A stretch of DNA of 64,000 bases from an uncultured Vicinamibacterales bacterium (GTDB lineage: Bacteria > Acidobacteriota > Vicinamibacteria > Vicinamibacterales > UBA8438). The translations under genes and the position numbers were made by a program. Shown piece after piece: positions 22,172 to 61,879 of the stretch. Under the pieces are notes generated by a model. It had not been told where the DNA came from. It worked only from the letters and a program-made list of their open reading frames with translations, and made no database searches. The stretch is from contig OY282382.1 of the NCBI GenBank assembly GCA_958295905.1, positions 3,496,001 through 3,560,000 of the forward strand. The letters run 5' to 3'. Positions within the stretch are counted from its first letter, which is position 1; every line of letters starts with the position of its first letter.

Positions 22172-23215
22172 ATGTCGAGAACAAGCCTGCATGTCGTGGT
22201 GGTGACCCTGGCGGTGGCGTTGGCCGGGGCGGGTGTGGCGCCGGCCCAGGTGCTGCCGAATCCGTATCGGCAGGTCGACGGGTGGGCGAAGCTGCCCGAC
22301 GGCCGGGAGATGGGCGCCGTCGGCAAGGTGACCATGGATCCGGACGGCGAGCACCTGTGGGCGGTCATCCGGTGCGACGCGTCCGGAGAGTTCTTCGGCT
22401 GGGAGTGTCTCGACTCCGACCTCGACCCGGTCGTGAAGTTTGACATGGACGGCAACGCCGTCGACAGCTTCGGCGGCGGGATGTTCATCTGGCCGCACGG
22501 CATCGACGTCGACAACGAAGGCAACGTCTGGGTCACCGACGCGGTGGCCGAGGCCCGGACCCCCGAGGGTACCCGCGGGCACCAGGTCATCAAGTTCAGC
22601 CCCACCGGCGAAGTGTTGATGACTCTGGGCACGCCCGGCAAGGCGGGCGGCGGCCAGGACCACTTCAACGCGCCGGCCGACGTGGTCGTCGCCGACAACG
22701 GCGACGTCTTCGTGGCGGACGGCCACGCCAACGAGACCAACAACCGCGTCGTGAAGTTCGCGGGTGACGGCACCTACATCAAGGAGTGGGGCCGGACCGG
22801 GTACGCGCCGGGCGAGTTCCGCACCCTGCATGCGATCGCCATGGACGCGGACGGGCGCATCTTCGTCGGCGACCGGTCGAACAACCGCATCCAGATCTTC
22901 GATCAGGAAGGCGGGTTCATCGCGCAGTGGACCCAGTTCGGGCGTCCCAGCGGCATCTTCTTCGACGACCACGGGCGCATCTTCGTGGCCGACTCCGAGT
23001 CGGACGACCTGCAGAACCCCGGCTGGGAGATGGGCATCCGGATCGGCGAGGTGGCCACCGGCTGGGTGACTGAGTTCATTCTCTTCCCGTGGGGGGACCC
23101 GCGCGACCCGGCCGGCAACGGCGCCGAGTTTGTGGCCGTCGACAGCGGGGGCAACATCTACGGCGGCGAGCCGCGCCCGCGCCGGATTCAGAAGTACGTG
23201 CGGGTGAGGCCGTAG
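22172..23215 (+). CDS. Secreted NHL-repeat beta-propeller protein
   Basis: The 347-residue protein (ATG 22172, GAGG just upstream; a GTG two codons earlier is possible) has a signal peptide ending near APAQV. It is built of repeated blades such as WPHGIDVDNEGNVWVTDAV, FNAPADVVVADNGDVFVADG, LHAIAMDADGRIFVGDRSNN and PSGIFFDDHGRIFVADSES, typical of the NHL/peptidylglycine alpha-hydroxyglycine lyase-like propellers that are numerous in Acidobacteriota. A paralog of similar design is at 34439. Enzymatic function (lyase, hydrolase) or simple binding cannot be decided. Confidence 0.85.
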   Translation: MSRTSLHVVVVTLAVALAGAGVAPAQVLPNPYRQVDGWAKLPDGREMGAVGKVTMDPDGEHLWAVIRCDASGEFFGWECLDSDLDPVVKFDMDGNAVDSFGGGMFIWPHGIDVDNEGNVWVTDAVAEARTPEGTRGHQVIKFSPTGEVLMTLGTPGKAGGGQDHFNAPADVVVADNGDVFVADGHANETNNRVVKFAGDGTYIKEWGRTGYAPGEFRTLHAIAMDADGRIFVGDRSNNRIQIFDQEGGFIAQWTQFGRPSGIFFDDHGRIFVADSESDDLQNPGWEMGIRIGEVATGWVTEFILFPWGDPRDPAGNGAEFVAVDSGGNIYGGEPRPRRIQKYVRVRP

Positions 23216-24942: not shown

Positions 24943-25182
24943 ACCGGGAAGGAACATCCCGGTTTCGTCGAGTCGCCCTCCGTCTTGGCGTCGTCGGTGT
25001 GATCGGGGCGGCGGGACCGTCGGCCGTGTCGGCTCAGGCCGATCCCGACGTTCCCCGCACCTCAACCGGGAAGGAGCATCCATGTCTCGTCGAATCGCCC
25101 TCTGTCTTGGCGTCGTCGGTGTGATCGGGGCGGCGGGACCGTCGGCCGTGTCGGCCCAGGCCGATCCCGACGTTCCCCGCAC
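24943..25182 (+). repeat. Tandem duplication of the leader region of the next gene (122-bp period)
   Basis: Copy 1 (24943-25064) and copy 2 (from 25065) share the ribosome site ACCGGGAAGGA(A/G)CATCC and about 100 bp of signal-peptide coding sequence. In copy 1 the ATG is replaced by CGG (CATCCCGGTTTCG against CATCCATGTCTCG), so only the downstream copy can start. The preceding 24784-24942 holds a short family A-like pair (GGGAGTCCGCGCC and GGCGCGGACTC). Confidence 0.93.
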
Positions 25183-26233
25183 CCCCTCCGGCCGGCCGGA
25201 TCTGTCCGGTACGTACGACACCGCCACCGTGACCCCGCTGCAGCGGCCGCGGGAGTTCGGCGATCGGCTGACGTTGACCCGGGAGGAGGCGGCGATCATC
25301 GCGTCGGACCCGGATGGGCTGGCCAAGGTGTTCAATCTGGCCCCGGCGGGGTCGGATGAACGGGCGGCGGCGCGGGCGGCGGAGCAGCGGGCCGGGTTCG
25401 AGACCCGGGAGGGCGACCGGGGGGCGCCGCCCGCCGGGGGAGACGGGTCGGGCGGGGCGGCCGGTAACGTCGGAGGCTACAACACGTTCTGGATCGATCG
25501 CGGCGAAGCCGCCTTTCAGATCGACGGGCTGATCCGCACGTCGATCATCACCGACCCGCCCGACGGCCGGCAGCCGCCCCTGACGGACGGCGCCCGCGCG
25601 GCGCGGGCGGCCCGGGCCGGGTTCGCGCGGCCCAACGACGGCACCGCGTGGTGGCTCGATGACGACCTCGATGCGCCCGGTCCCTACGACCACCCCGAGC
25701 AGCGTCCGCACGCCGAGCGGTGCCTCATGGGGTTCGGGTCCACCGCCGGACCCCCGATGCTCTCGGTCCTCTACAACAACATGAAGCGCATCGTGCAGAC
25801 CGACGACACGGTGATGATTCTGGTCGAGATGGTGCACGACGCCCGCATCGTCCGCATGAACCAGGAACACAATCCGCCGGAGATCCGGAGCTGGCTGGGT
25901 GACTCGGTCGGCCGCTGGGAGGGTGACACCCTCGTCGTCGACACCACCAACTTCACCGACAACCCGTCCTTCGGCGGGGCCTCCCGGCACCTGCACGTCG
26001 TCGAGCGGTTCACCCGGCTCGACGACGAAACGCTCCTCTATCAGTTCACGGTGGACGACCCCACGGTGTGGACCGCCCCGTGGAGCGGCGAGTACGTCTG
26101 GCCCGCCTCGGACGACCGGGTCTACGAGTACGCCTGTCACGAGGCGAACTACTCGTTCGGCGGCATCCTGCGCGGCGCGCGGGTCCTCGAAGAGGACGCG
26201 CGCGCCGCGGCCGGGGCCGGCGCGCGCGACTGA
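25082..26233 (+). CDS. Secreted protein of a lineage-specific paralogous family, member 1
   Basis: AAGGAG precedes ATG 25082. The 383-residue protein has a signal peptide (MSRRIALCLGVVGVIGAAG to VSAQA). It shares with the proteins at 38689 and 63108 the order RPDLSGTYD(T)..TPLQRP near the start, NTFWIDRG, TSIITDPPDGRQP, ERCLMGFGSTAGPPM, YNN(N/M)..I.QT(D)D, VEMVHDARIV, GRWEGDTLVVDTTNF, ERFTRLDDETLLYQFTVDDP and a final YACHEANYSFGGILRGAR. No catalytic motif is known. The family is abundant in Acidobacteriota, often beside catabolic genes. The charged Ala/Gly-rich insert at residues 90-140 is unique to this member. Confidence 0.75.
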   Translation: MSRRIALCLGVVGVIGAAGPSAVSAQADPDVPRTPSGRPDLSGTYDTATVTPLQRPREFGDRLTLTREEAAIIASDPDGLAKVFNLAPAGSDERAAARAAEQRAGFETREGDRGAPPAGGDGSGGAAGNVGGYNTFWIDRGEAAFQIDGLIRTSIITDPPDGRQPPLTDGARAARAARAGFARPNDGTAWWLDDDLDAPGPYDHPEQRPHAERCLMGFGSTAGPPMLSVLYNNMKRIVQTDDTVMILVEMVHDARIVRMNQEHNPPEIRSWLGDSVGRWEGDTLVVDTTNFTDNPSFGGASRHLHVVERFTRLDDETLLYQFTVDDPTVWTAPWSGEYVWPASDDRVYEYACHEANYSFGGILRGARVLEEDARAAAGAGARD

Positions 26234-26235
26234 CG

Positions 26236-27210
26236 TCAGGGGCGGGGCGGCGAGAGGGCGATTCGGAAGCCGATGAAGGGTCGGCGGGCGCCGGGATCGG
26301 CGCCGCCGCGGGTGGTGGTGCGGAGGTTGCGGGCCGGGTCCGTGAACGAGCCGCCGCGCATGACCCACAGGGCGTCGGCTTCCAGGTCCACGCGGTCCGC
26401 GCCTTCATCGAACGGGTAGGGTCGGAACGGGCTCCGGGTCCATTCCCAGACGTTTCCGCTCATGTCCGCGAGTCCGTAAGGGCATTCGGGGCACGAAACG
26501 CGGCCGGCCGGGGTGGTGCCCCGACTCTGGTGGTTGGCCCGGTCGCGGCGCATCTGCGGGCCCCACGGATAGCGCCGGGCATCGGTTCCGCGCGCCGCTT
26601 TCTCCCACTCCGCTTCCGTCGGCAGCGTGACCCGCCAGCCCGCGCCGAGCCGTTCGGCGAGCGCGGGCGGTGTCTGCGGCGCTTCCCGCAGCTCGCGGTC
26701 GAGCCACCGGCAGTAGGCCAGCGCGTCGGGCCACGACACGTTCGCGACGGGATGGTCGGGGGGCGTCCGCAAGGCCTCGGCGTCGGCGGGGAATCCGGTC
26801 GCGGCGAAAGCCGCGAACTGCGCCACGGTGACCTCGTAGCGGCCGATGAGATACGCCGGCAGGTAGACCGTCCCCTGGGCGGACGCCGCCGACCAGCGCT
26901 CGTTGTCGAAGGCCTCGGGGTCGGTGGTCGGATCGGCGCCCATGGAGAACGGCCCGGCCGGAATCTCGACGAAGCCGAGGCGCGGGTCGTCGGGCAGGAA
27001 CCACGCGTCGGCGCGGAATCCCGGCAGAGCGGCGGGGGTCGCGGAGGCCGGCGGCGTCGCGCCGGCGGTTGCGCCGCCGTCGCCGGGAACCGGCTGAAGC
27101 CCGAGCCAGAGGGCCGCGCCGATGACCAGCGCGCCCAGGATCGCTGGTCCGATCACGCCCGGTGCGGTGGTCTCGGGAGGAGAGGCGGAAGCGGTGGCGG
27201 TGGACGTCAT
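26236..27210 (-). CDS. Formylglycine-generating enzyme/SUMF1-fold protein, membrane-anchored
   Basis: The 324-residue protein has one N-terminal membrane helix (PAILGALVIGAALWLGL) after a Ser/Thr-rich start, then a SUMF1/EgtB fold: VEIPAGPFSMGADP, YEVTVAQFAAFA, HPVANVSWPDALAYCRWLD, RVTLPTEAEWEKAARG, YPWG, DMSGNVWEWT and the end VMRGGSFTDPARNLRTTTRGG plus FIGFRIAL. This is the standard motif order. Whether it makes formylglycine or is a divergent iron or lectin-like relative is open, since the copper-binding cysteines of true FGE are not evident. It is convergent with the secreted paralog, two bases apart. Confidence 0.88.
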   Translation of the reverse strand: MTSTATASASPPETTAPGVIGPAILGALVIGAALWLGLQPVPGDGGATAGATPPASATPAALPGFRADAWFLPDDPRLGFVEIPAGPFSMGADPTTDPEAFDNERWSAASAQGTVYLPAYLIGRYEVTVAQFAAFAATGFPADAEALRTPPDHPVANVSWPDALAYCRWLDRELREAPQTPPALAERLGAGWRVTLPTEAEWEKAARGTDARRYPWGPQMRRDRANHQSRGTTPAGRVSCPECPYGLADMSGNVWEWTRSPFRPYPFDEGADRVDLEADALWVMRGGSFTDPARNLRTTTRGGADPGARRPFIGFRIALSPPRP

Positions 27211-27350
27211 CGGAAACCCTGGCCGCCCCCCGTGGCCGAAGTCCCGGACGGGGCGGCGGCGCGCCGGGGCGGCCCGGGAAGCCGGCGGCTGGCGCGCTGC
27301 GGACGATTCGGTGCGGGCGACGGGGTCTCGGGCGGCATGTTCTCTTGTCA

Positions 27351-28973
27351 CTACGGCTGGCAGGCGAACGACCAGCCGTGCTCGCAGGCCCGCGCCCGGA
27401 GCGCCGGCTCGGGCATGTCCAGCAGGTTGGGGCCGGCCTCTCTGAGCAGCAGCCGGAGGTCCAGGGGGCGCGGATCGGCGCGAACGAGCGACGTCCGGTC
27501 CAGCAGGTTGACGCAGCCGGCCTGAAACCGAAGCTCGCACGCCTGCGAGAAATACTCGAGCGCACGCTCGGCGTCGGCGGGGACCACGCTTCCTTCCCGG
27601 TAGTGCCGGCCGAGCTCGTTGCACGCCCATCCGGCGTTGTCGCCGCAGTAGTTGGTCTCGATCCGGATCAGGCGCGCGCACGCCTGCGGCCGGTCATCGG
27701 CGCAGGTCCGCTCCCAGAAGGGCACGCTGTCTCCGCGATGCCGGCCGTCGGTCGCCCCCGCCGCGGACATCGCCGCGAAGAACAGCACCCAGACCGCCAT
27801 GTGCAGCAGGTTGCCGCCGGCCGGCGCCCAGGCTCCGGCCCGCCGCGCCGGACCGCGGCGGGCCCCCGCCGCGGCGGCGAGCCGATCAATCCACGGCACG
27901 CTCAGGTTCAGCAGCGGCACGCACAGCAGCTTGTCGTAGAAGGTGGGGAGGCCCGCCGTCCCCAGCAGCGCGTAGAGCGCGAATACGCCGAGTCCGTAGA
28001 GAGCGCCGAAGAGGGCCTTGCCGGGCGGCGTCCGCGGAGAGGTCGACGGGTCGGTCACCAGCAGGTGCAGACCGAGGAACACCGCGCTCGGGATCTCGGA
28101 GTCGATGAAGTACGGCACGCCGGCAATCGCCGAGTACAGCGCGCTCGACCCGAAGAGGACGATCGCGGCCGAGCCCGCGACCAGGGTGATCGAGAAGGCG
28201 TACATGACGACGAGGCCGATCGCGAACAGGAACAGATAGATCCGCGGCGCCAGGGTCAAGGTCGAGGCGATGTCCTGGCCCCAGGTCAGGTCGGTGGTGC
28301 CGGTCGCGAGCAGAATCAGCGAGAACAGGCCGAGGGAGAAGGCGGACGGGTTGAAGATGTGGGCGCTGCGCCCCTCGCGCCGCCGGCGCACGAACTCCTT
28401 GCCGAGGAAGCCGGCCGCGAGCATCACGAACTGGAGGTAGAACCAGTCGTCGCGGAACCAGAGGAAGAGGTTGGTGCTGAAGATGATCGGGAACGGGCCG
28501 AACCCCAGCACGTAGTGGTCGCGGCGCGACCAGGACAGCAGCAGGTCGAACGCGTACGCGAAGACGAGCTGGGCGATGAGCAGCCACGCATGGTCGTACA
28601 CCGGCCGCCAGAAGTATCCCCAGTACAGGAACACCGCCATCTGGACTGCGGCCTGCAGGTAGTGCTGCGGCCGCGCGACGACGCGAAACGACCGGCCGGC
28701 CGACGGCGTCCGCAGGCGCAGGTAGAGGACCGCCTGCCACGCCCCCAGCGCCGCCGCGGCGGCCCAGAACGAGCCGGTGAGGACCGCGTTCGACTGCACG
28801 CGGGGCGCCAGCGACACCGCGAGCAGACCGAGCGTGAGCCCCAGGGGAACCGCCCAGGCCCGAAGGGATGGCGTCGCGCCGGCCGGTCCGGCAGCCGCCG
28901 CCGGGCCGGAAGGGGCCGGGGGCGGTTCGTGCCGATGGGGGGGGCGGGAGCGCCGGCGTCGCGCGGCTGACAT
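27351..28973 (-). CDS. NqrB/RnfD-like membrane protein fused to a soluble Cys-rich repeat tail
   Basis: The 540-residue protein has about nine hydrophobic helices in its first 400 residues. It holds motifs that mark the NQR2/RnfD/RnfE family: SAHIFNPSAFSLGLFSL (family HIFNPAAFG) and LLVTDPSTSPRTPPGKALFGALYGLG (family TDPxSSPxTxxG). I do not see the SGAT-type FMN-attachment threonine, so flavin binding is uncertain. After the last helix (residue 410) a tail of 130 residues with CADDRPQACARLIRIE, CGDNAGWACNELGRHYREG and CELRFQAGCVNLLD looks like Cys-rich Sel1/TPR repeats. It is divergent from the sodium-pumping decarboxylase genes, which suggests a shared theme of sodium or electron bioenergetics. 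No other rnf/nqr gene is in the window. Confidence 0.72.
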   Translation of the reverse strand: MSAARRRRSRPPHRHEPPPAPSGPAAAAGPAGATPSLRAWAVPLGLTLGLLAVSLAPRVQSNAVLTGSFWAAAAALGAWQAVLYLRLRTPSAGRSFRVVARPQHYLQAAVQMAVFLYWGYFWRPVYDHAWLLIAQLVFAYAFDLLLSWSRRDHYVLGFGPFPIIFSTNLFLWFRDDWFYLQFVMLAAGFLGKEFVRRRREGRSAHIFNPSAFSLGLFSLILLATGTTDLTWGQDIASTLTLAPRIYLFLFAIGLVVMYAFSITLVAGSAAIVLFGSSALYSAIAGVPYFIDSEIPSAVFLGLHLLVTDPSTSPRTPPGKALFGALYGLGVFALYALLGTAGLPTFYDKLLCVPLLNLSVPWIDRLAAAAGARRGPARRAGAWAPAGGNLLHMAVWVLFFAAMSAAGATDGRHRGDSVPFWERTCADDRPQACARLIRIETNYCGDNAGWACNELGRHYREGSVVPADAERALEYFSQACELRFQAGCVNLLDRTSLVRADPRPLDLRLLLREAGPNLLDMPEPALRARACEHGWSFACQP

Positions 28974-29437: not shown

Positions 29438-30540
29438 TGGCGTTTCTCGATCAGCTCGGCGTTCCGGCCGTCACTCCGGGCATGGTGGTCATGTGGGCGA
29501 TCGGGCTGACCCTGATCCATCTCGCGGTACACCGCCGGTACGAACCGTTGCTGCTGTTGCCGATCGGGTTCGGCATCCTGATCGCCAATCTGCCGCTGAC
29601 CGGACTGATGACCCCCGGCGAGGGCCTGATCTGGCGGTTCTATCACTACGGGGTCGAATGGGAGGTCATCCCCCCGCTCATCTTCCTCGGGCTCGGGGCG
29701 CATACCGACTTCGGCCCGCTGCTGTCGCAGCCGCGCCTGATCTTCCTGGGGGCGGCGGCGCAGGGCGGCGTCTACGTCGCGTTCTTTGCCGCGCATGCGT
29801 TCGGATTCAGCCTCGAGGAGGCCGCGGCCATCGGCATCATCGGCGGCGCCGACGGGCCGACCACGATCTTCCTCGCCGCCCAGCTCGCCCCCGAGCTGCT
29901 CGGTGCCTGCGCCGTCGCCGCCTACTCCTACATGGCGCTGGTCCCGATCATCCAGCCGCCGATCATGCGCCTCCTGACGACGGAGCGGGAGCGGGCGATC
30001 CGGATGAAGAGGGCGCGGAAGGTGACGGTCCGCGAGAAGCTGCTCTTTCCGATCGTCGCGGCGATGGGCATCGTGCTGCTGGTGCCCGCCTCGGCGCCGC
30101 TGATCGCGATGTTCATGCTGGGCAATCTCTTCCGCGAGTCGAAGGTCGTCGAGCGTCTGACGGACACCGCGCAGAACGCCCTGATGAACATCGTCACCAT
30201 CTTCCTCGGCCTGAGCGTCGGGGCCACGATGGACGCGGCGACGTTCCTGCGGGCCGACGTGCTGTTCATCTTCGCGCTGGGTCTCGCCGCGTTCGCGTTC
30301 GGCACGGCCGGCGGCGTGCTGCTCGCCAAGCTGATGAATCTGTTCACGAAGGATAAGATCAACCCGCTGGTCGGGGCGGCGGGGGTGTCGGCGGTGCCGA
30401 TGGCGGCGCGCGTCGCCCACCAGGTCGGGGCCGAGGCCGACCGGAAGAACTATCTGCTGATGTTCGCCATGGGCCCGAACTTGGCCGGCGTCATCGGCAC
30501 GGTCGTCGCGGCCGGCATCTTCCTGACGATGCTGGGATAG
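29437..30540 (+). CDS. gcdB: Sodium ion-translocating decarboxylase beta subunit (OadB/GcdB family)
   Basis: The 367-residue, nine-to-eleven-helix protein starts at GTG 29437 (VAFLDQLGVPAVTPGMVVMW). It carries the family landmarks GFGILIANLPL, PPLIFLGLGAHTDFGPLL, GIIGGADGPTTIFLA (with the D of GADGPT needed for sodium transport in OadB), SYMALVPIIQPPIM, LGLSVGATM, KINPLVGAAGVSAVPMAARV and the end MFAMGPNLAGVIGTVVAAG. It uses the free energy of carboxybiotin decarboxylation to export two sodium ions. Because the alpha subunit at 32457 is of the glutaconyl-CoA type, the symbol gcdB is chosen. Confidence 0.92.
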   Translation: MAFLDQLGVPAVTPGMVVMWAIGLTLIHLAVHRRYEPLLLLPIGFGILIANLPLTGLMTPGEGLIWRFYHYGVEWEVIPPLIFLGLGAHTDFGPLLSQPRLIFLGAAAQGGVYVAFFAAHAFGFSLEEAAAIGIIGGADGPTTIFLAAQLAPELLGACAVAAYSYMALVPIIQPPIMRLLTTERERAIRMKRARKVTVREKLLFPIVAAMGIVLLVPASAPLIAMFMLGNLFRESKVVERLTDTAQNALMNIVTIFLGLSVGATMDAATFLRADVLFIFALGLAAFAFGTAGGVLLAKLMNLFTKDKINPLVGAAGVSAVPMAARVAHQVGAEADRKNYLLMFAMGPNLAGVIGTVVAAGIFLTMLG

Positions 30541-40781: not shown

Positions 40782-42845
40782 ATGCGGAACCCCACGCCGG
40801 CGCCAGCCCGGAAACCGCCGCCCTGCGGCTCCGCCCGCCGCCGAACCGCCCGCCCGGGCGCCCGGGCCGTTCTGCGGCGGCTCCTGGTCGCGGGGCTGAG
40901 CTTGGCCGCAGCGGTGCCGGCCGGGGCGCAGGCCGCCGGCGAATGGCGCTACTTCGGCGGGGACGAAGCTTTCACCCGCTACTCGCCCCTCGATCAGATC
41001 GACCACCGGAACGTGGGTGACCTGGAGGTCGTCTGGCGCCGGCCCGGCGTCGACCCGGCGCTGCGCGCGGCGTTCCCGGACCTGCGCGTGAACGCCTATC
41101 TGCGGTCGACGCCGGTCATGATCGACGGCGTGCTCTACGCCCCCAACGCGCTCGGCCTGCTCGATGCGTTCGATCCGGCCACGGGGGAGACAGTCTGGCG
41201 CCAGGCCCCGTTCGCCGCCACCCTCGAGGAGGTCGCGGGCCGCAGCACGCGGGGGGCCGCCTACTGGACCGACGGCACGGTCCGGCGGCTGCTGCTGGTC
41301 CGGGGAGGGTATCTGTACGCGGTCGATGCGCGGACCGGGCGTCCGGCGCCGTCGTTCGGTCTCGCCGACCAGGGCCGGGTCGATCTGCAGTGGGATCACC
41401 CCCTTGCCGGCAACTTCGACTGGTCGGCGGGACCGATCGTGGTGGGCGACGTGGTGGTCGTGGCCGGCACCACCGGTGGCGCCGGCGACGGCGGGGTCGT
41501 GCGCGAGGCGGCGCCGGAAGACGTTCGCGGCTTCGACGCGCGGACCGGCGAACTCCTGTGGACGTTCCACGTGGTGCCCCGTCCCGGGGAGTTCGGCGCC
41601 GAGACCTGGGGTGACGGAGCCGGGGAGTACTCGGGTGATCTGGGCTCGTGGTGCTGCCTCGCCGCCGACGAGGCGTTGGGCTACGTCTACGTGCCCTTGT
41701 CGGCGCCCACCGGGATGATCTACGGCGGCCACCGGCCCGGCGACAACCTGTTCTCGGACAGTCTCGTCGCCCTTGATGCCGCGACCGGCGAGCGCGTGTG
41801 GCACTTTCAGATGGTGCACCACGACGTCTGGGAGTACGACACGGTCGGACCGCCGACGCTCGGTGCCCTCGTCGTCGACGGCCGTCGCATCAACGCGGTG
41901 ATGCAGCCCAGCAAGACGGCGTTTCTGTACGTGCTCGACCGCGGGACCGGCGAGCCGGTCTGGCCGATCGAAGAGCGCGCGGTGCCGCCGTCGATCGTGC
42001 CGGGCGAGCGGACCTCGCCCACCCAGCCGTTCCCCACGAAGCCGCCGCCCTTCGACCGGCAGGGCGTCACCGAGGACGACCTCATTGACTTTACCCCCGC
42101 GCTGCGGGCGGAGGCGGTCGAGAATCTGGTGCTGGGGCCGCTGTTCACCCCGCCCTGGCCGCGCAGCGGCGGGCCCGGCGGCAAGGTGGGGACGCTGACC
42201 GTTCCCGGCGGGTGGGGAGCCGGCAACTGGCACACCGGGGCGTTCGATCCCGAGACCGGGATCTACTACGCGGTGTCCCACACCATGCCGACGGTGTGGA
42301 GCGTCGCGCCGACGACGGCCGGGGACGCCACGCTGGCGTGGGCGACGCCGCAGGGGGACGAGTTGCGCGTGCCGACCCCCAGGCCCCACGGGCTTCCGAT
42401 CACCAAACCGCCGTACGGACGCATCACCGCCCTGGATCTGAACCGGGGCGGGCTGGCGTGGATGGCGCCCAACGGTGACGGGCCGCGCAACCACCCGCGG
42501 TTGCGGCACCTCGATCTGCCACCCCTCGGTATTCCCAACCGCCCGGCGCCGCTCGTGACCGGCAGTCTCTTGTTCCTCGGCGAGGGCAGCGACGCCATCA
42601 TCGGCACCCTGCGCGGCGACGGCGCCCCGTCAGATCCCGAGCAGGACCAGTCCTGGCGGTGGGGCCGGACCTTCCGCGCCTACGCGAAGGCGACCGGCGC
42701 GGTGGTCTGGGAGACGAAACTGCCGGCCGGCACCACCGGCGCCCCCATGACCTACCTGCACGAGGGCAGGCAGTACATCGTCGTCGCCGTCGGCGCCCGC
42801 GACGAGATCCCCGAGTGGGTGGCCCTGGCCCTTCCGCCGCGGTAG
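40782..42845 (+). CDS. PQQ-dependent dehydrogenase (quinoprotein), exported
   Basis: I choose ATG 40782 (MRNPTPAPARKPPP); an Arg-rich n-region leads into a signal helix (LLVAGLSLAAAVPAGAQA). The 687-residue protein shows quinoprotein propeller features: WRYFGGDEAFTRYSPLDQID near the start, STPVMIDGVLYAPN, the tryptophan-docking blades (AFDPATGETVWR), the C-C pair GSWCCLAAD (the family's vicinal disulfide), FQMVHHDVWEYDT and the closing KATGAVVWETKLPAGTTGAP. It has no C-terminal haem domain, but the convergent gene at 42903 encodes a cytochrome c that could accept its electrons. The alcohol or sugar substrate is unknown. A truncated relative is at 61485. Confidence 0.93.
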   Translation: MRNPTPAPARKPPPCGSARRRTARPGARAVLRRLLVAGLSLAAAVPAGAQAAGEWRYFGGDEAFTRYSPLDQIDHRNVGDLEVVWRRPGVDPALRAAFPDLRVNAYLRSTPVMIDGVLYAPNALGLLDAFDPATGETVWRQAPFAATLEEVAGRSTRGAAYWTDGTVRRLLLVRGGYLYAVDARTGRPAPSFGLADQGRVDLQWDHPLAGNFDWSAGPIVVGDVVVVAGTTGGAGDGGVVREAAPEDVRGFDARTGELLWTFHVVPRPGEFGAETWGDGAGEYSGDLGSWCCLAADEALGYVYVPLSAPTGMIYGGHRPGDNLFSDSLVALDAATGERVWHFQMVHHDVWEYDTVGPPTLGALVVDGRRINAVMQPSKTAFLYVLDRGTGEPVWPIEERAVPPSIVPGERTSPTQPFPTKPPPFDRQGVTEDDLIDFTPALRAEAVENLVLGPLFTPPWPRSGGPGGKVGTLTVPGGWGAGNWHTGAFDPETGIYYAVSHTMPTVWSVAPTTAGDATLAWATPQGDELRVPTPRPHGLPITKPPYGRITALDLNRGGLAWMAPNGDGPRNHPRLRHLDLPPLGIPNRPAPLVTGSLLFLGEGSDAIIGTLRGDGAPSDPEQDQSWRWGRTFRAYAKATGAVVWETKLPAGTTGAPMTYLHEGRQYIVVAVGARDEIPEWVALALPPR

Positions 42846-47633: not shown

Positions 47634-48863
47634 TCAGGGGCGTTCGCGGGGAGTCGCGGCGGTGACGGGTGACCAGTTGGCGGCGCGCCGCTGGGCGGTG
47701 GCGAGGGGGCCGGGCGTCAACTGCTGCGCGACGATGGCGCGTCCCCGCAACAAGCTCGTCCGCGCCGGTTCCGCGGCCCGCGACGCGGCGAGGGTGAGCC
47801 ACACGTACGCGGCGACCAGGTCCTGCGGCACGCCGTCGCCGTTGGCGTGCATGATGCCGAGATTCTGCTGCGCCGCGGCATCGCCCTGGTCGGCGGCCCG
47901 GCGGAACCAGCGCGCCGCCTCACGTGCGTCCCGCGCGACCCCGGCGCCGGTATCGTAGCTCATCCCCAGGTTGAACTGAGCCCGGACGTGGCCCTGCTCG
48001 GCCGCGAGCCGGACCAGCCGGACCGCCTCCGCGAGGTCCCGCCCGACCCCCCGGCCGTTGAAGTACAGGTTGGCCAGCGCGAACTGCGCCTCCGCGTGGT
48101 TCTGGTCGGCCGCCCGCCGGATCCAGCGGACCGCCTCGGCGTCGTCCTCGGGCACCCCGGCGCCGGCGTCGTAGAGATAGCCGAGGGTGACCTGGGCGGC
48201 GGGGTCGCCCTGGACCGCCGCGAGGCGGTACCAGCGTACGGCGAGGGCGGGGTCCCGGTCGACGCCCGAGCCCGTCTCGTGCATGCTGGCGAGGGTGACC
48301 TGGGCGGCGGGGTTGCCCTGGGCCGCCGCCATCCGCACCCAGTGCGCCGCGCGCGACCGGTCCTGCGGGACGCCGCGGCCGTTGTAGTGCATCTGCCCGA
48401 GGTTGAACTGCGCCTCGGCGTGGCCCTGGTCGGCCGCGCGCCGGAACCAGCGGACCGCCTCGGCGTCGTCGCCGCCGACGCCGGCGCCGCGGGCATACAT
48501 CCGTCCGAGCCTGAACTGGGCCTCCCAGTGGTCCTGGTCGGCCGCCCGGCGGTACCACTGGACCGCCTCGGCGTCGTCCTCGGGCACCCCGAGACCGGCG
48601 TCGTAGCGGAGCCCCAGGGCGTGCTGGGCGCCGGCGTGGCCCTGGTCGGCGGCCAGCCGGTACCAGCGCGCGGCGCGCCCGTCGTCCTGCGGGACGCCGG
48701 TGCCGGACACGTGGAGGCGGGCGAGGTTGAACTGCGCCGCCGCATCGCCCGCCTCGGCCCGGGCGCGCAGTTCGCCGACGTCCCGCTGGGCCTGCGCGGG
48801 CGCCGCGAGCAGCGCCGCGCCCGCGCCGATGACGAGCCTCAGAAGCAGCGGATGCCGGCGCAC
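47634..48863 (-). CDS. Exported Sel1-repeat protein
   Basis: The 409-residue protein has a signal peptide (LVIGAGAALLAAPAQAQ), then about nine 36-residue Sel1-like repeats such as DGRAARWYRLAADQGHAGAQ, each with GxGVPxDDxEAVRWxRRAAD and AQFxLGxMYxxG. It forms an alpha-solenoid for protein contacts in the periplasm. The DNA repeats are near-identical, so the copy number may vary between strains. A short GGGGCGTTCGCGGGGTCA tandem lies just after the stop. Partner unknown. Confidence 0.93.
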   Translation of the reverse strand: MRRHPLLLRLVIGAGAALLAAPAQAQRDVGELRARAEAGDAAAQFNLARLHVSGTGVPQDDGRAARWYRLAADQGHAGAQHALGLRYDAGLGVPEDDAEAVQWYRRAADQDHWEAQFRLGRMYARGAGVGGDDAEAVRWFRRAADQGHAEAQFNLGQMHYNGRGVPQDRSRAAHWVRMAAAQGNPAAQVTLASMHETGSGVDRDPALAVRWYRLAAVQGDPAAQVTLGYLYDAGAGVPEDDAEAVRWIRRAADQNHAEAQFALANLYFNGRGVGRDLAEAVRLVRLAAEQGHVRAQFNLGMSYDTGAGVARDAREAARWFRRAADQGDAAAQQNLGIMHANGDGVPQDLVAAYVWLTLAASRAAEPARTSLLRGRAIVAQQLTPGPLATAQRRAANWSPVTAATPRERP

Positions 48864-48867
48864 GACT

Positions 48868-50538
48868 CTATCCCGCAGCGGGGATCGGCGCGGTGTCGAC
48901 GATGCCCGCGCCTTCCTCGACGGTGATCGTCCGGCCGGCGGGCACCGCGCCGAGCCGGTCCACCCGGCCGCTCGGCCAGGTGACGGTGACCGCGTCGGCC
49001 CGCGTCCGGTCGCCGAGGCCGAAGGTCACCGGCTGCTCGCTCTGCGACAGGTAGCTCGACCCCGTCTTGACCACCTGCCACCGGGTGCGTCCCCCCGCCG
49101 TCACGTCGATGCGGGCCCCGATGCCGTCGCGGTTCGAGGTCGTCCCCACGGTTCGGATGCGCAGCATTCGGTTCTCGTTGCCGCCGTCGTTGCGGAGCAG
49201 CCGCGGCGCGCCGCCGTTGGCGGTCACCAGCACGTCGAGGTCGCCGTCGCGGTCGAAATCGGCGTAGGCGGCGCCGCGCCCCACCTGGGGGGCCCCGAGG
49301 GCGGTGTCGGGGGCGGCCACCTCTTCGAACCGCCGCCCGCCGTCGTTGCGGAACAGTTGCGGCGGTTGCGCGTAGGTGATGCGGGCCTGCACCCGCTCGA
49401 CGTCGTCGGCGACGTGTCCGTTGGCGGCGAAGATGTCCGGCCAGCCGTCGAGGTCGAAGTCGAAGAAAAAGCAGCCGAACGTCAGGGTCAACAGGGTCGA
49501 CCGGCCGATGGCCGAGCGCGGTCCCTCGTCGATGAAGAGGCCGTTGCCCTCGTTGTGATAGAGGGCCATCATCTCGGTGGAGAAGTGGCCGATGACGAGG
49601 TCGGGCCGGCCCGAGCCGTCGTAGTCGGCGGCGTCGACCCCCATTCCCGCGCGGGCCACCCCCGCGTCGCTGAACGCCACCCCCGCGAGGACCCCGATGT
49701 CCTCGAACGTGCCGTCGCCGCGGTTCTCGAAGAGCTGGTCGGGCTGGGTGTCGTTGGCCACGAACAGGTCCATCCAGCCGTCGCCGTTGAAGTCGAGCAT
49801 GACGACGCCGAGCGCCTTCGCCGAGGGGGCGCGCACGCCGGCCGACGTCGTCACGTCCTCGAAAGTCGAGTCGCCCCGGTTCCGATAGAGCGTGCCGCTC
49901 TGCCCCTGATAGGACTCCGGCGTGCAGTACGACTTGGTGTCGCCGGTCAGCGAGCAGAACAGGTCGGTCTCCGGCGTCCAGCGCACGTAGTTGCCGACGA
50001 ACAGGTCGAGGCGCCCGTCCTTGTCGTAGTCGAACCAGAGGGCGGCGGTCGAGAACCCCGGGTCGCCGACCCCGGCCGACTCGGTGACGTCGGTGAACGT
50101 GCCGTCGCCCGCGCCCCGGAACAGGCGGTTGGGCCCGAGCACCGTGAGATAGACGTCGACGTGCCCGTCGTTGTCGAAGTCCGCGGCGGCGCCGCCCAGG
50201 CCGTACAGCGGCACGTCGAGCCCCGAGCCGCGGGTGATGTCGGTGAACGTCCCGTCCCGGTCGTTGCGGTACAACGCGGCGTGGGTCCCGGCCTCCCCCC
50301 GCTCGGGCCAGCCGGTGCCGTTGACGAGCAGCACGTCCTGCCAGCCGTCGCCGTCGGCGTCCAGCCACAGGACCCCCGAGCCGAAGGTCTCCGGCATGTA
50401 CTTGGCGCCGAAGGCGCCGGTGTTGTGGTCGAAACGGATGCCCGCAAGTTCGGTGACGTCGGTGAAGACCACCGGCGCGGCCGCCGCCGGGACGTTGGAA
50501 ACGGATACGGCGAGGGTCAGAGCCAGGAAGCGTGTCAT
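48868..50538 (-). CDS. CRTAC1-family FG-GAP/ASPIC protein, exported
   Basis: The 556-residue protein has a signal peptide (FLALTLAVSVSNVPAAAA), then integrin-type FG-GAP/VCBS repeats with DxDxDG calcium loops (LWLDADGDGWQDVLLVNGTG, AADFDNDGHVDVYLTVLG, LDFNGDGWMDLFVANDTQPD, DFDLDGWPDIFAANGHVADD) and a C-terminal ASPIC/UnbV domain (IRTVGTTSNRDGIGARIDVT, then WPSGRVDRL). Such proteins often sit beside TPR and cytochrome genes in Acidobacteriota. Its start is 4 bp from the stop of the pentahaem gene, so the two form an operon. The job is unknown; it may be a cell-surface scaffold. Confidence 0.92.
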   Translation of the reverse strand: MTRFLALTLAVSVSNVPAAAAPVVFTDVTELAGIRFDHNTGAFGAKYMPETFGSGVLWLDADGDGWQDVLLVNGTGWPERGEAGTHAALYRNDRDGTFTDITRGSGLDVPLYGLGGAAADFDNDGHVDVYLTVLGPNRLFRGAGDGTFTDVTESAGVGDPGFSTAALWFDYDKDGRLDLFVGNYVRWTPETDLFCSLTGDTKSYCTPESYQGQSGTLYRNRGDSTFEDVTTSAGVRAPSAKALGVVMLDFNGDGWMDLFVANDTQPDQLFENRGDGTFEDIGVLAGVAFSDAGVARAGMGVDAADYDGSGRPDLVIGHFSTEMMALYHNEGNGLFIDEGPRSAIGRSTLLTLTFGCFFFDFDLDGWPDIFAANGHVADDVERVQARITYAQPPQLFRNDGGRRFEEVAAPDTALGAPQVGRGAAYADFDRDGDLDVLVTANGGAPRLLRNDGGNENRMLRIRTVGTTSNRDGIGARIDVTAGGRTRWQVVKTGSSYLSQSEQPVTFGLGDRTRADAVTVTWPSGRVDRLGAVPAGRTITVEEGAGIVDTAPIPAAG

Positions 50539-50542
50539 CGGG

Positions 50543-53356
50543 TCAGGGGGCGGCCGTCCGCGAGTCCGGGTGCCGGTGCTCGTGAATGGCCTGCCGTTCG
50601 TTGTTGTCGTGGGGCGAGGCGCGGCGAAACGCGCCGGTTATCGCCTGGGCGGCTTCGTCCGCCTTGAACCGTTCATAGAGCGCGCGCTCCCGCATCGCCT
50701 CTTCCCGGTCGCCCGCGCCCTGATGGGCCAGCATCAGATTGTAATGGGCGGAGACGTCTTCGGGGTCTATCGCGAGCACCGCCTCGTAGGTGGCGATGGC
50801 CGCTTCGTACTGCCGGTTGAGGAACTGCAGGCGTCCGATCTGGCCGAGGACCACGCGGTCGCGCGGATACTGGTCGCGGGCCGCCGCCAGGTGCTCCAAC
50901 GCTTCCTCGTAGCGGCCGAGGGCGCGCAATGCGGTGCCGAGGAAGAAGTGGGCGCGGGCGAGGTCCGGCTCGAGGGCGAGGGCCTGCTCGAGAAGCGGGA
51001 TCGTCGCGTCGACGTCCCCTTCCTGCAGCCGGGCCCGCGCCGCGTTCACCGGTCCGTCGGGATAGTCGGGGTCGATGGCCATCACCCGGCGGAACGCCGC
51101 CTCGGCCCCGCGCAGGTCGCCCTGCAGCAGGAGGCCGATGCCGTAGTCGTTCCAGCGCTCCCGGTGCCGCGCGTCGCCGGGCGGCGGGACCGGCGGCGCC
51201 GGCAGCGGCGCGTCGGGGTCGATGACCGACAGGGTCGCGGCGGCCTCCGCCATCACCGTCGTGGGGATGTCCGGAATCGCCTTCACCTGCCCCGACACCC
51301 CGCTCGTGTCGCCGGTGAAAACCCACCGGCCGTCGTCGTGGGCGCTGGTGACCGCCGGCGCCGGGTCCGACGGATCGCGGACGCCGGCGAACGCCCACTG
51401 GGTGAACCACCACGCGAACTTCCGGTAGTTGACCTTGGCCCGCAGGGTGATGCGGTCCCCGGCGTCCTCGGGAATCTGCAGCCGGTAGTGGACGGTGTCG
51501 GCCGCGCCGGGCGGGATCAACCGCACATAGGCGACGGATCGGGTCGCCCAGGCGTTCCGCTTGTTGATGGGGTTGCCGTGTTCGTCGAGCTGCAGGCTGC
51601 GGTAGAAGTGCGCGCTGGGGTCCACCGGCCCGCTGCCCCCGTCCGCCGCCTCGCCGCTGTGGAGCAGCACGCGGCCCCGGTCGTCCACCGCTTCCAGCTC
51701 GACCCACACGTCGAAGGCGTCGACGGTTCCGCCGGGGAAGAAGTGACCGACGTTGCGGGTGCGGACCACCACCTCGAGGCGCACCGACTCGCCGCGCCGC
51801 ACCGCCACCGGCGACAGATCGAGAGGCGCTATCACGTCGGCCGGCGGGGGTCCGCCGGGCAGTCGCCGCGCCGCCCCGAACTGCAGCGACTCTTCGCCGA
51901 CCGCGAACGTGCTCGACAGGGCGGGCTCGGCGCCCGGCGCGATCGCCGCGGCGCGGACCGGCGCGTCGGCCACGCGGGTGATGCCGAACACGTCTATCGA
52001 CACCTGCCCGGCCCGCAGGAAGTTCTGCACCGCCTCGAGTTGCGCCCGGTCGCGGTTCACGAACGGCAGGGCGGTGTTCGCGCCGGGGAAGCGGTGCGAC
52101 CGCACGAAGCCGTCGCGGGCGGCGGGGTCGTCGGACCGCACCAGGGGCATGTGGCACGAATTGCAGGTCTGCGGCGTTTCGGGGTAGTAGAACGACCGGG
52201 CGCCCTGCCCGGAGACCCCCGACGCCTGCCAGTTGTCGTACTCGTTGAATCCCCGCACCCAGCGGTAGTCGTTGACCGGCAGGTCGAGGTGCACCTTGTG
52301 GCACGACGAGCAGAACTCGGCGCTCTGCCCGCGGTGGAACGGCTTCATGAACGTGTCGCGGTGGGGTCCGGGGGCGAGCCGCAGCAGCAGGTCGTGCGCG
52401 CTCCGCAGCAGCGGGTGCCCGCTCGCCGCGAGGTCGTGCAGCGGGGGGTACTCGATGGTGAAGCCGCCCTGGCCCATGGTGCTGCCGACGTGCACGATGG
52501 AGTGGCACGACGTGCAGCCGAGCCCCGCCTGCGCCTCCGGGGTGTCGATCTGGTCCACGATCGGCCGGTCGAAGCGCCCGTTGAAGAACACCGCGTGGTC
52601 GTGGCAGCCGGCGCACCACTTCGACGGCCGGGTGCCCACCACCTCCTGCATGTACTCGATGGACCGCCGGTACCACTGGTTGTTGAACGACGAGAAGTGG
52701 TGGGCCGAGGCGTTCCACTGCTCGTAGATGTCGGCGTGGCACCGGCCGCAGGTCTCGCTGGTCAGGAAGAAGTCGGCGGGAATGGCGCCGCCGGTGTTCG
52801 TCGTGGCCGACGACGGCGCGAACGGGCTGGACGCCCCGGCTCCCTCCTCGGCCATGCTCGCGGGGGGGCGGACGGGGTTCTCGATGCGGTGGGTCTCGCG
52901 CCAGTCCGCGTCCCGCGCCGCGCGCAGCAGGGGCGCGCTCAGCCCGGCTGCGGCGGCCGCGACGAGGCCGATGCGCACGGCCGCCGCCCACCCGCGTGTC
53001 CCGGCGGGGGCGCGCCAAAGGTGGACGCCCCACAGGACCGCCCCGGCCACGGACACCGCGACGTGGATCTGCAGCAGCGGGGCGTGGTCGCGGGTGGCCC
53101 CGGCCGCGGCCACCGCCAGCCCGAGGACCAGCCCCGCCGCGAGCAGGCCGACCCCGGCAGGCGCCACGACGTTTCCGCGCCGCGGGCGCCGCCACGCCGC
53201 CCGGACGAGCGTCCCCACCAACACGAGGCCCAGCAGGGGATGCAGGCCGACGGTGGCGAAGTACGCGAGGGACGCGGCCGGCGCCGCGACCAGATGGGCC
53301 GCGGTCAGCAGCAGAGCGATGAAGCCGAGCGCGGCCAGCCGGGAGGTGCTCGTCAT
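50543..53356 (-). CDS. Membrane-bound pentahaem cytochrome c with TPR tail
   Basis: The 937-residue protein has three parts: (1) four hydrophobic helices in residues 1-150 (FIALLLTAAHLVAAPAASLA and others); (2) a periplasmic multihaem domain with five CxxCH sites: CGRCH, CAGCH, CTSCH, CSSCH and CNSCH, plus a later beta-rich region; (3) a C-terminal set of TPRs (NDYGIGLLLQGDLRGAEAAF, PEDVSAHYNLMLAHQGAGDR). This resembles cytochrome c554/DmsE-type proteins fused to TPR. It could move electrons across the membrane to a periplasmic partner, perhaps the CRTAC1 protein downstream. The DNA just above its start is an amplified copy of its own 5' end. Confidence 0.9.
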   Translation of the reverse strand: MTSTSRLAALGFIALLLTAAHLVAAPAASLAYFATVGLHPLLGLVLVGTLVRAAWRRPRRGNVVAPAGVGLLAAGLVLGLAVAAAGATRDHAPLLQIHVAVSVAGAVLWGVHLWRAPAGTRGWAAAVRIGLVAAAAAGLSAPLLRAARDADWRETHRIENPVRPPASMAEEGAGASSPFAPSSATTNTGGAIPADFFLTSETCGRCHADIYEQWNASAHHFSSFNNQWYRRSIEYMQEVVGTRPSKWCAGCHDHAVFFNGRFDRPIVDQIDTPEAQAGLGCTSCHSIVHVGSTMGQGGFTIEYPPLHDLAASGHPLLRSAHDLLLRLAPGPHRDTFMKPFHRGQSAEFCSSCHKVHLDLPVNDYRWVRGFNEYDNWQASGVSGQGARSFYYPETPQTCNSCHMPLVRSDDPAARDGFVRSHRFPGANTALPFVNRDRAQLEAVQNFLRAGQVSIDVFGITRVADAPVRAAAIAPGAEPALSSTFAVGEESLQFGAARRLPGGPPPADVIAPLDLSPVAVRRGESVRLEVVVRTRNVGHFFPGGTVDAFDVWVELEAVDDRGRVLLHSGEAADGGSGPVDPSAHFYRSLQLDEHGNPINKRNAWATRSVAYVRLIPPGAADTVHYRLQIPEDAGDRITLRAKVNYRKFAWWFTQWAFAGVRDPSDPAPAVTSAHDDGRWVFTGDTSGVSGQVKAIPDIPTTVMAEAAATLSVIDPDAPLPAPPVPPPGDARHRERWNDYGIGLLLQGDLRGAEAAFRRVMAIDPDYPDGPVNAARARLQEGDVDATIPLLEQALALEPDLARAHFFLGTALRALGRYEEALEHLAAARDQYPRDRVVLGQIGRLQFLNRQYEAAIATYEAVLAIDPEDVSAHYNLMLAHQGAGDREEAMRERALYERFKADEAAQAITGAFRRASPHDNNERQAIHEHRHPDSRTAAP

Positions 53357-61484: not shown

Positions 61485-61879
61485 TCCTCGGCACCGGGCT
61501 TCGGCTGCGGGGTGTGCAGCCAGATGGTCTCGCCGGTCGCCGCGTCCACCGCCGCGACCTCGCTGGCCCCGGTCGAAGTGTAGAGCACCCCGCCGATCAT
61601 GATCGGGGTCGACTCGAAGTTGAAGAACGGGCGCTCGGCCGAGTTCTCGGCCCGCCACCGCCACGCCACCTCCAGGTCGTTCACGTTCGACGCGTCGATC
61701 TGGTCCAGCGCCGTGTATTGCGTATGGCCGCCGTCGCCCGCGTAGAACCGCCACTCGCCGTCCGCCGCGCCGTACTGGGCGAGGGCGGGGCCGGCCGAGG
61801 CCAGGATTGCGCCGGCCAACACGCAGGGCGCGGGCGCGCAGGGGAGGAAACGCCGCCGGGTTGCAGCAGTCATCGGCAT
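61485..61879 (-). pseudogene. 5' fragment of a PQQ-dependent dehydrogenase gene
   Basis: From ATG 61879 (MPMTAATRRRFLPCAPAPCV) the frame has a Tat-like leader, then WRFYAGDGGHTQYTALDQID, NVNDLEVAWRWRAENSAERP, FNFESTPIMIGGVLYTSTGA and ATGETIWLHTPQPKPGAEDD, the first blades of a quinoprotein dehydrogenase. After about 131 codons similarity ends where the reverse transcriptase remnant begins. The intact relative is at 40782. It looks cut by the mobile element. Confidence 0.85.

Follow-up and report, generated by a model that had tools for sequence, protein, structure and literature searches.

An UnbU-like membrane protein with a Sel1-repeat tail is encoded beside an FGE-domain protein in three bacterial phyla

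Introduction

NqrB has both its N and its C terminus in the cytoplasm. The same orientation is given for RnfD (PMC9588780). The riboflavin ligands of NqrB from V. cholerae include T162, N200, N203, and D346 (Hau et al., PMC10643135), and the ApbE motif, at which FMN is covalently attached, is [S/T]GA[S/T] (PMC10979944). Nqr/Rnf-like two-subunit systems have also been described (PMC8238504 and PMC10979944). In these, a lone NqrB/RnfD-like subunit which has lost the flavinylation threonine carries a fused soluble domain, the cytosolic NAD-binding NqrF domain PF00175, and is accompanied by an RnfG-like partner.

UnbU is part of a set of genes that enediyne clusters have in common. Judging from gene position, we take it to be E4 of the E3/E4/E5/E/E10 cassette. 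To our knowledge, neither a structure of UnbU has been solved nor has a biochemical role been established. The cassette as such is named in PMC5181780.

The PF03781 (FGE-sulfatase) domain is shared by the FGE-fold proteins CalU17, PorK/GldK, PvdO, and EgtB. CalU17 is a protein of the calicheamicin cluster. Sel1 repeats with C-x7-C cysteine pairs occur in the Hcp proteins of Helicobacter, which are secreted on their own.

We analyzed 64,000 nucleotides of contig OY282382.1 from an uncultured Vicinamibacterales bacterium (the window; all coordinates refer to it unless stated otherwise). It codes for a protein, P0001, which combines an NqrB/RnfD-type membrane part with a Sel1 tail, and for an FGE-domain protein beside it. 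Modules of this UnbU-type plus FGE-type composition are widespread. In the literature searched (open-licence PMC) they are undescribed: we found there no description of the pair or of an RnfD with a Sel1 tail.

Results and discussion

The gene and the fold of its membrane part

P0001 (540 aa, ATG start) is encoded at 27351..28973 on the reverse strand. A sequence-only reading had assigned the motifs HIFNPSAF and TDPSTSPRTPPG to a single gene with a fused, Cys-rich tail, and both motifs are indeed found exactly in the translation of this open reading frame. P0001 has matches in every one of the 27 further genomes from its family f1, and 340 stretches of GTDB genome contigs match it as well; a search with the single protein gave matches in 7 of 149 genomes. 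Among 80 GTDB loci inspected, 78 have a readable ORF (it is missing in L103 and L154, and the gene of L136 is truncated by a contig end). The membrane part and the tail share one frame in every readable gene, which rules out that the tail is a separate gene.

An AlphaFold2 model of P0001, computed from a 67-row alignment, has a mean pLDDT of 82.5 and a pTM of 0.77. Comparison of this model with RnfD and NqrB by VIA-align resulted in Z 20.2 for RnfD (8rbq_D, 4.2 Å over 265 residues) and Z 19.9 for NqrB (8a1x_B, 3.5 Å over 272 residues), the match extending to about residue 379 of P0001. Because these values of about 20 are well ahead of the next fold families, Rh/Amt (Z 13.5) and urea channels (Z 9.7), the modeled membrane part is assigned the NqrB/RnfD fold, which bears out the relationship that had been proposed from the sequence. 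Foldseek with the whole chain found nothing at E ≤0.001; NqrB came closest (1.8e-3). The Pfam matches are weak as well: NQR2_RnfD_RnfE (PF03116) is found by hmmscan at residues 225–365 with 24.7 bits (E 1.8e-5; cut-off 27.7), and in a six-frame search of the genome P0001 scored 28.5, just above this cut-off.

The membrane part (residues 37–404; 27762..28865, reverse strand) was delimited by the helices of the AlphaFold2 model, the VIA match range, and loop charges. In the model, 13 membrane helices were counted: two at the N terminus, the ten-helix NqrB/RnfD core, and one extra C-terminal helix. Because the short loops carry 21 Lys/Arg residues on the inside as opposed to 4 on the outside, it is well supported by the positive-inside rule that the N terminus is cytoplasmic and that the tail is located outside the inner membrane.

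The second-best folds raise the question of a channel or a transporter for solutes or ions, which would have lost the covalent flavin and would use the periplasmic Sel1 and FGE parts as a gate or a substrate receptor. RnfD and NqrB are related to Amt and UT (PMC12174285), and the canonical FMN motif is absent from P0001. We nevertheless consider a transporter unlikely, given that NqrB/RnfD scores about 6 Z units above Amt and that two residues of the riboflavin site, N208 and D308, are invariant.

Flavin-site residues

The motif HIFNPS (residues 205–210; 28344..28361, reverse strand) aligns with the NqrB sequence KNFLNPA and the UnbU sequence RHxMNPSN, and in the motif TDPST (residues 307–311; 28041..28055, reverse strand) D308 aligns with D346 of NqrB. 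Sequence and profile alignment, on which the register of N208, D308, and H205 relative to NqrB depends, thus match the NqrB riboflavin ligands N203 and D346 with N208 and D308, both of which are retained in 67/67 sequences of our larger alignment (A2) and 40/40 of the smaller one (A1). Ligand N200 is replaced, as it aligns with H205, which is equally invariant (67/67 and 40/40). T162 is not kept, the aligned position of P0001 being occupied by F161. The invariant polar residues of the core are H104, Q107, H205, N208, D308, and K348 (67/67 and 40/40), and H303 is kept in 67/67 and 39/40 sequences, respectively.

At the columns aligned with the NqrB motif SGAT (position of Thr236), P0001 has no [S/T]GA[S/T] motif for covalent FMN attachment. 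The earlier statement that such a motif is lacking is thus correct for the canonical motif; S237/T238 or the invariant T230 are candidate attachment residues which could occupy the place of the FMN threonine, as the residue-level alignment is uncertain here. One paralog from the same genome (L044) has SGAT in the T230 column. The genome carries two ApbE genes. Loss of the flavinylation threonine has a precedent in NqrB/RnfD-like subunits of Nqr/Rnf-like systems, for which it is reported in PMC10979944.

The Sel1 tail

The Hcp-like Sel1 tail (residues 405–540; 27354..27761, reverse strand) was delimited from phmmer and Pfam matches and from its Cys pairs. It matches HcpC (1ouv, E 6.6e-16) and HcpB (1klx, 1.8e-9) in phmmer searches, and Pfam Sel1 is found at residues 450–481 (26.8 bits, E 7e-6), below the cut-off of 30.7. 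The cysteines which had been noticed in the tail number eight and are arranged as four C-x7-C pairs (424/432, 443/451, 479/487, and 530/538). Because all four pairs are unbroken in 67/67 sequences of alignment A2, the pattern is not due to chance; by analogy to the Hcp proteins, the pairs probably form disulfides. As distinct from those free-standing secreted proteins, the Hcp-like domain of P0001 is fused to a membrane core.

Tails vary among the paralogs and may be an 8-Cys Sel1 domain, a 14-Cys Sel1 domain, or a Cys-free TPR domain (L059, L061, L076–L079, and others). Locus L059 carries two paralogs with different tails, with an FG-GAP protein encoded upstream.

The FGE-domain partner

Downstream of P0001, on the same strand, a membrane-anchored protein of 324 aa with an FGE-sulfatase domain is encoded (26236..27210, reverse strand). 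PF03781 scores 151 bits on the longer ORF 26236–27681, against a cut-off of 23.3. A survey of neighbors in other genomes identified this gene, which the sequence-only reading had not mentioned, as a conserved neighbor of P0001. In 18 of 20 relatives' loci, an FGE-domain gene lies beside the P0001-type gene, and the pair is kept even where the other neighbors seen in the window differ or are gone. The partner was found in 76 of the 80 GTDB loci, which cover three phyla (among the 66 loci that were aligned, 26 are from Pseudomonadota, 25 from Acidobacteriota, and 15 from Gemmatimonadota). At L103 and L154, the intergenic gaps of the pair are distorted by the broken reading of the first gene. In one MAG, from Gemmatimonadota (L121), both genes are joined in a single frame of 828 residues (P0002); this fusion lacks the last Cys pair (C530, C538) and the partner's anchor helix. 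Its AlphaFold2 model, based on a mixed alignment, is poor beyond residue 530, in the FGE part, and was left out of the conclusions. Because of the frequency of the partner in both sets of loci and the one-frame fusion, P0001 and the FGE-domain protein are considered a two-gene module. The suggested single-gene device is therefore not upheld.

The partner is missing from four of the 80 loci. One of these is at a contig end (L136); the remaining three (L100, L102, and L122) group in a single clade. In both the L100 and the L102 genome, an FGE copy (63–65%) is present at another site; its contig and position identify it as the one belonging to the paired copies L086 and L087. In a quick tree with 96 rows, the FGE-linked sequences fall within one clade of 70 rows (SH-aLRT 99), which also holds L100, L102, and L122, together with three paralogs that lack an FGE gene. 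No FGE gene was detected at the 40 loci of paralogous or partial members (L044–L083).

Several members of the partner family have N termini which, judged by eye, resemble signal peptides or lipoboxes. From its sequence, the partner therefore seems to be exported, or anchored to the side where the Sel1 tail lies. Only two of its cysteines are invariant, C240 and C243 (25/25 sequences), which form a C-P-E-C motif (26482..26493, reverse strand). The segment RGGS..C....C, which holds the copper-binding Cys pair of FGE, is devoid of Cys in all 25 sequences. The partner thus differs from FGE in having an invariant CxxC instead of cysteines in this copper-site segment.

Its best match in the PDB is CalU17 (E 6.3e-31), followed by PorK (1.2e-25), and PorK/GldK is matched by 25/25 sequences. 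This lead is too small to claim kinship to CalU17 from sequence comparison. The PorK/GldK matches could point to an envelope scaffold or assembly factor, with the Sel1 and FGE-like (GldK/PorK-type) domains as interaction modules and the membrane part as their anchor, and the exchange of tails among the paralogs would suit such a role. A mere anchor, though, has no need of the seven conserved polar residues in its core (H303 included), so that a scaffold appears improbable to us, to about the same degree as a transporter.

Relation to UnbU and to enediyne clusters

Five plasmid records match P0001, four of them in the tail region. The fifth, a Streptomyces "enediyne biosynthesis protein" (E 0.8), matches in the membrane core. 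Its gene has as neighbors CRTAC1/UnbV and an "SDR family" protein of very large size, which occupies the place of the type I PKS in other records. When profiles were compared by hhalign, P0001 matched UnbU with 96.3% (E 1.6e-9, 198 columns) and NqrB/RnfD with 68.5% (E 4.6e-5, 69 columns), while UnbU matched the same four NqrB/RnfD sequences with 10.2% (E 3.1e-3). By this ranking, which is based on 7 UnbU and 4 NqrB/RnfD rows, the membrane part of P0001 is nearer to UnbU than to NqrB/RnfD; fold matching was unable to rank UnbU.

UnbU resembles P0001 in its borderline Pfam NQR2/RnfD score (25.5 vs. 24.7 bits), in the His of the motif HxxNPS, in the motif TDPxTxP, and in the lack of SGAT. It differs from P0001 in having no Sel1 tail and in being encoded with UnbV/CRTAC1 and a PKS, in stretches without an FGE-domain gene. 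The Streptomyces UnbU proteins L185, L186, L188, and L190 have a short Cys-rich end (e.g., CKDGTCFHGKC) which is unlike the Sel1 tail.

The similarity to UnbU, together with CalU17 as the partner's best PDB match, could be taken to indicate a biosynthetic function: the UnbU-like and the FGE-like protein would together carry out an oxidation in the synthesis of an unknown metabolite, comparable to that in enediyne pathways. The lead of CalU17 over PorK is small, and neither unbV nor an enediyne PKS, nor any other polyketide synthase, was found beside the pair among the window neighbors. A search of the genome for DUF1702 was silent, as were the control searches. We thus regard a biosynthetic pair as quite improbable.

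The genome also codes for UnbV_ASPIC proteins at other places; of these matches, the nearest is at 48922–49125. At 47634–53356 (reverse strand), adjacent genes encode a Sel1-repeat protein, a CRTAC1-type protein (UnbV_ASPIC/FG-GAP-like), and a large protein in which CxxCH-like motifs occur; this UnbV-type setting is about 20 kb away from the UnbU-like gene.

Relation to Nqr and Rnf

P0001 shares with NqrB/RnfD the fold and the equivalents of N203 and D346. It differs from them in the lack of SGAT and of an nqr/rnf operon, in its extra helices, and in its periplasmic tail. The NCBIfam cut-offs are missed by a wide margin (nqrB, 15.7 vs. 349.9; rnfD, 16.2 vs. 207.05), and no operon of nqrA,C-F or rnfA-C,E,G was found among the window neighbors or the commonest neighbor clusters of the 80 loci. 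Membership of P0001 in Nqr or Rnf is ruled out by motif, operon, and NCBIfam scores. The claim that other Rnf/Nqr genes are lacking holds for the neighborhood but not for the genome, which has a bona fide NqrB at C1:5188345 (508.5 bits, SGAT present). With respect to INDEPENDENCE from Nqr/Rnf, two of four other carrier genomes showed no true NqrB/RnfD in a PF03116 search; only borderline UnbU-like matches were obtained from OM182 bacterium MED-G28 (G198) and from a Gemmatimonadota MAG (G199), both of which are draft genomes that may have missed such a gene.

The lone subunits of Nqr/Rnf-like systems resemble P0001 in their fused soluble domain and in the loss of the flavinylation threonine (PMC8238504 and PMC10979944). 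Instead of the NqrF domain and an RnfG-like partner, P0001 has a periplasmic Sel1 domain and an FGE-like partner. A C-terminal PF00175 domain is absent, as Pfam found only Sel1 in the tail.

A gene for the beta subunit of oxaloacetate decarboxylase (OAD_beta; 29482..30540, forward strand, 511.8 bits) is the divergent neighbor of P0001 in the window. It is probably not part of the module: it adjoins the gene divergently in 13 of the 80 loci, all of them Acidobacteriota records, and is found downstream in 2 more. A single-gene sodium device acting with the decarboxylase is ruled out, since this neighbor is lineage-specific. Support for a function related to sodium did not turn up either. P0001 is neither a sodium pump nor a subunit of Nqr or Rnf.

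A tentative mechanism

The anatomy of P0001 (fold, tail, and pairing) is well supported, and a function in electron transfer is possible. The best explanation, which we favor tentatively, is an UnbU-type electron conduit that serves a periplasmic redox partner of the FGE fold; beyond the anatomy, we infer the flavin, the flow of electrons, the docking, and the chemistry of the partner. The membrane core would keep a non-covalent flavin in a pocket equivalent to the riboflavin site of NqrB, with N208 and D308 retained and N200 replaced by H205, and would connect the quinone pool with the periplasm by electron transfer. The extra C-terminal helix places the Hcp-like Sel1 domain in the periplasm, where it might dock the FGE-like partner, and the CxxC or another site in the FGE fold of the latter would perform periplasmic redox chemistry.

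Several points count against a conduit. P0001 has neither the canonical FMN motif nor T162, and His takes the place of N200. In addition, the tree holds 29 paralogs that lack an FGE gene and have to function on their own. The partner shows no Cys in the copper-site segment of FGE, and its CxxC may be structural. Neither a c-type haem nor an Fe-S or further flavin domain was found in the pair. We are more doubtful about a wider proposal, in which the UnbU-type conduit with its non-covalent flavin, the disulfide-rich Sel1 dock, and a CxxC oxidoreductase of the FGE fold would make up a self-contained periplasmic redox machine, distributed over at least three phyla and related to the orphan UnbU but found outside antibiotic clusters.

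Recurrent PQQ dehydrogenase neighbors would suit a periplasmic electron device. PQQ genes are near 24 and a c-type cytochrome is near 10 of the 80 loci. PF01011, the PQQ dehydrogenase domain, is matched 99 times in the genome (6.3 Mb), although several of these matches are pieces of one gene; within the window, they are at 40944–42599, 42666–42779, and 61493–61753. The genome thus belongs to an unusually quinoprotein-rich bacterium. Because PQQ genes are so common in it, their adjacency is weak and is given no weight, and PQQ dehydrogenases and cytochromes c were set aside as partners.

The NqrB/RnfD fold has thus found at least one further use in which the remaining Nqr/Rnf machinery is lacking. 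A relative of UnbU outside enediyne clusters represents a small system for testing the chemistry of this membrane family: it is made up of two genes or, in one case, of one chain. Among its carriers is a sequenced isolate, LSUCC0112 (record L149, not labeled as a MAG). This isolate (G197) holds a true NqrB, the UnbU-like gene, and a further RnfD-like protein (L181), in which DGFATATP replaces SGAT.

Two other genes recur near the module. The "GRPDLSG" secreted protein (25082–26233, forward strand), which is without a Pfam family, is found near 32 of the 80 loci, and an NHL-repeat protein (22172–23215, forward strand) near 29. Both also occur near the module in Gammaproteobacteria, in another arrangement.
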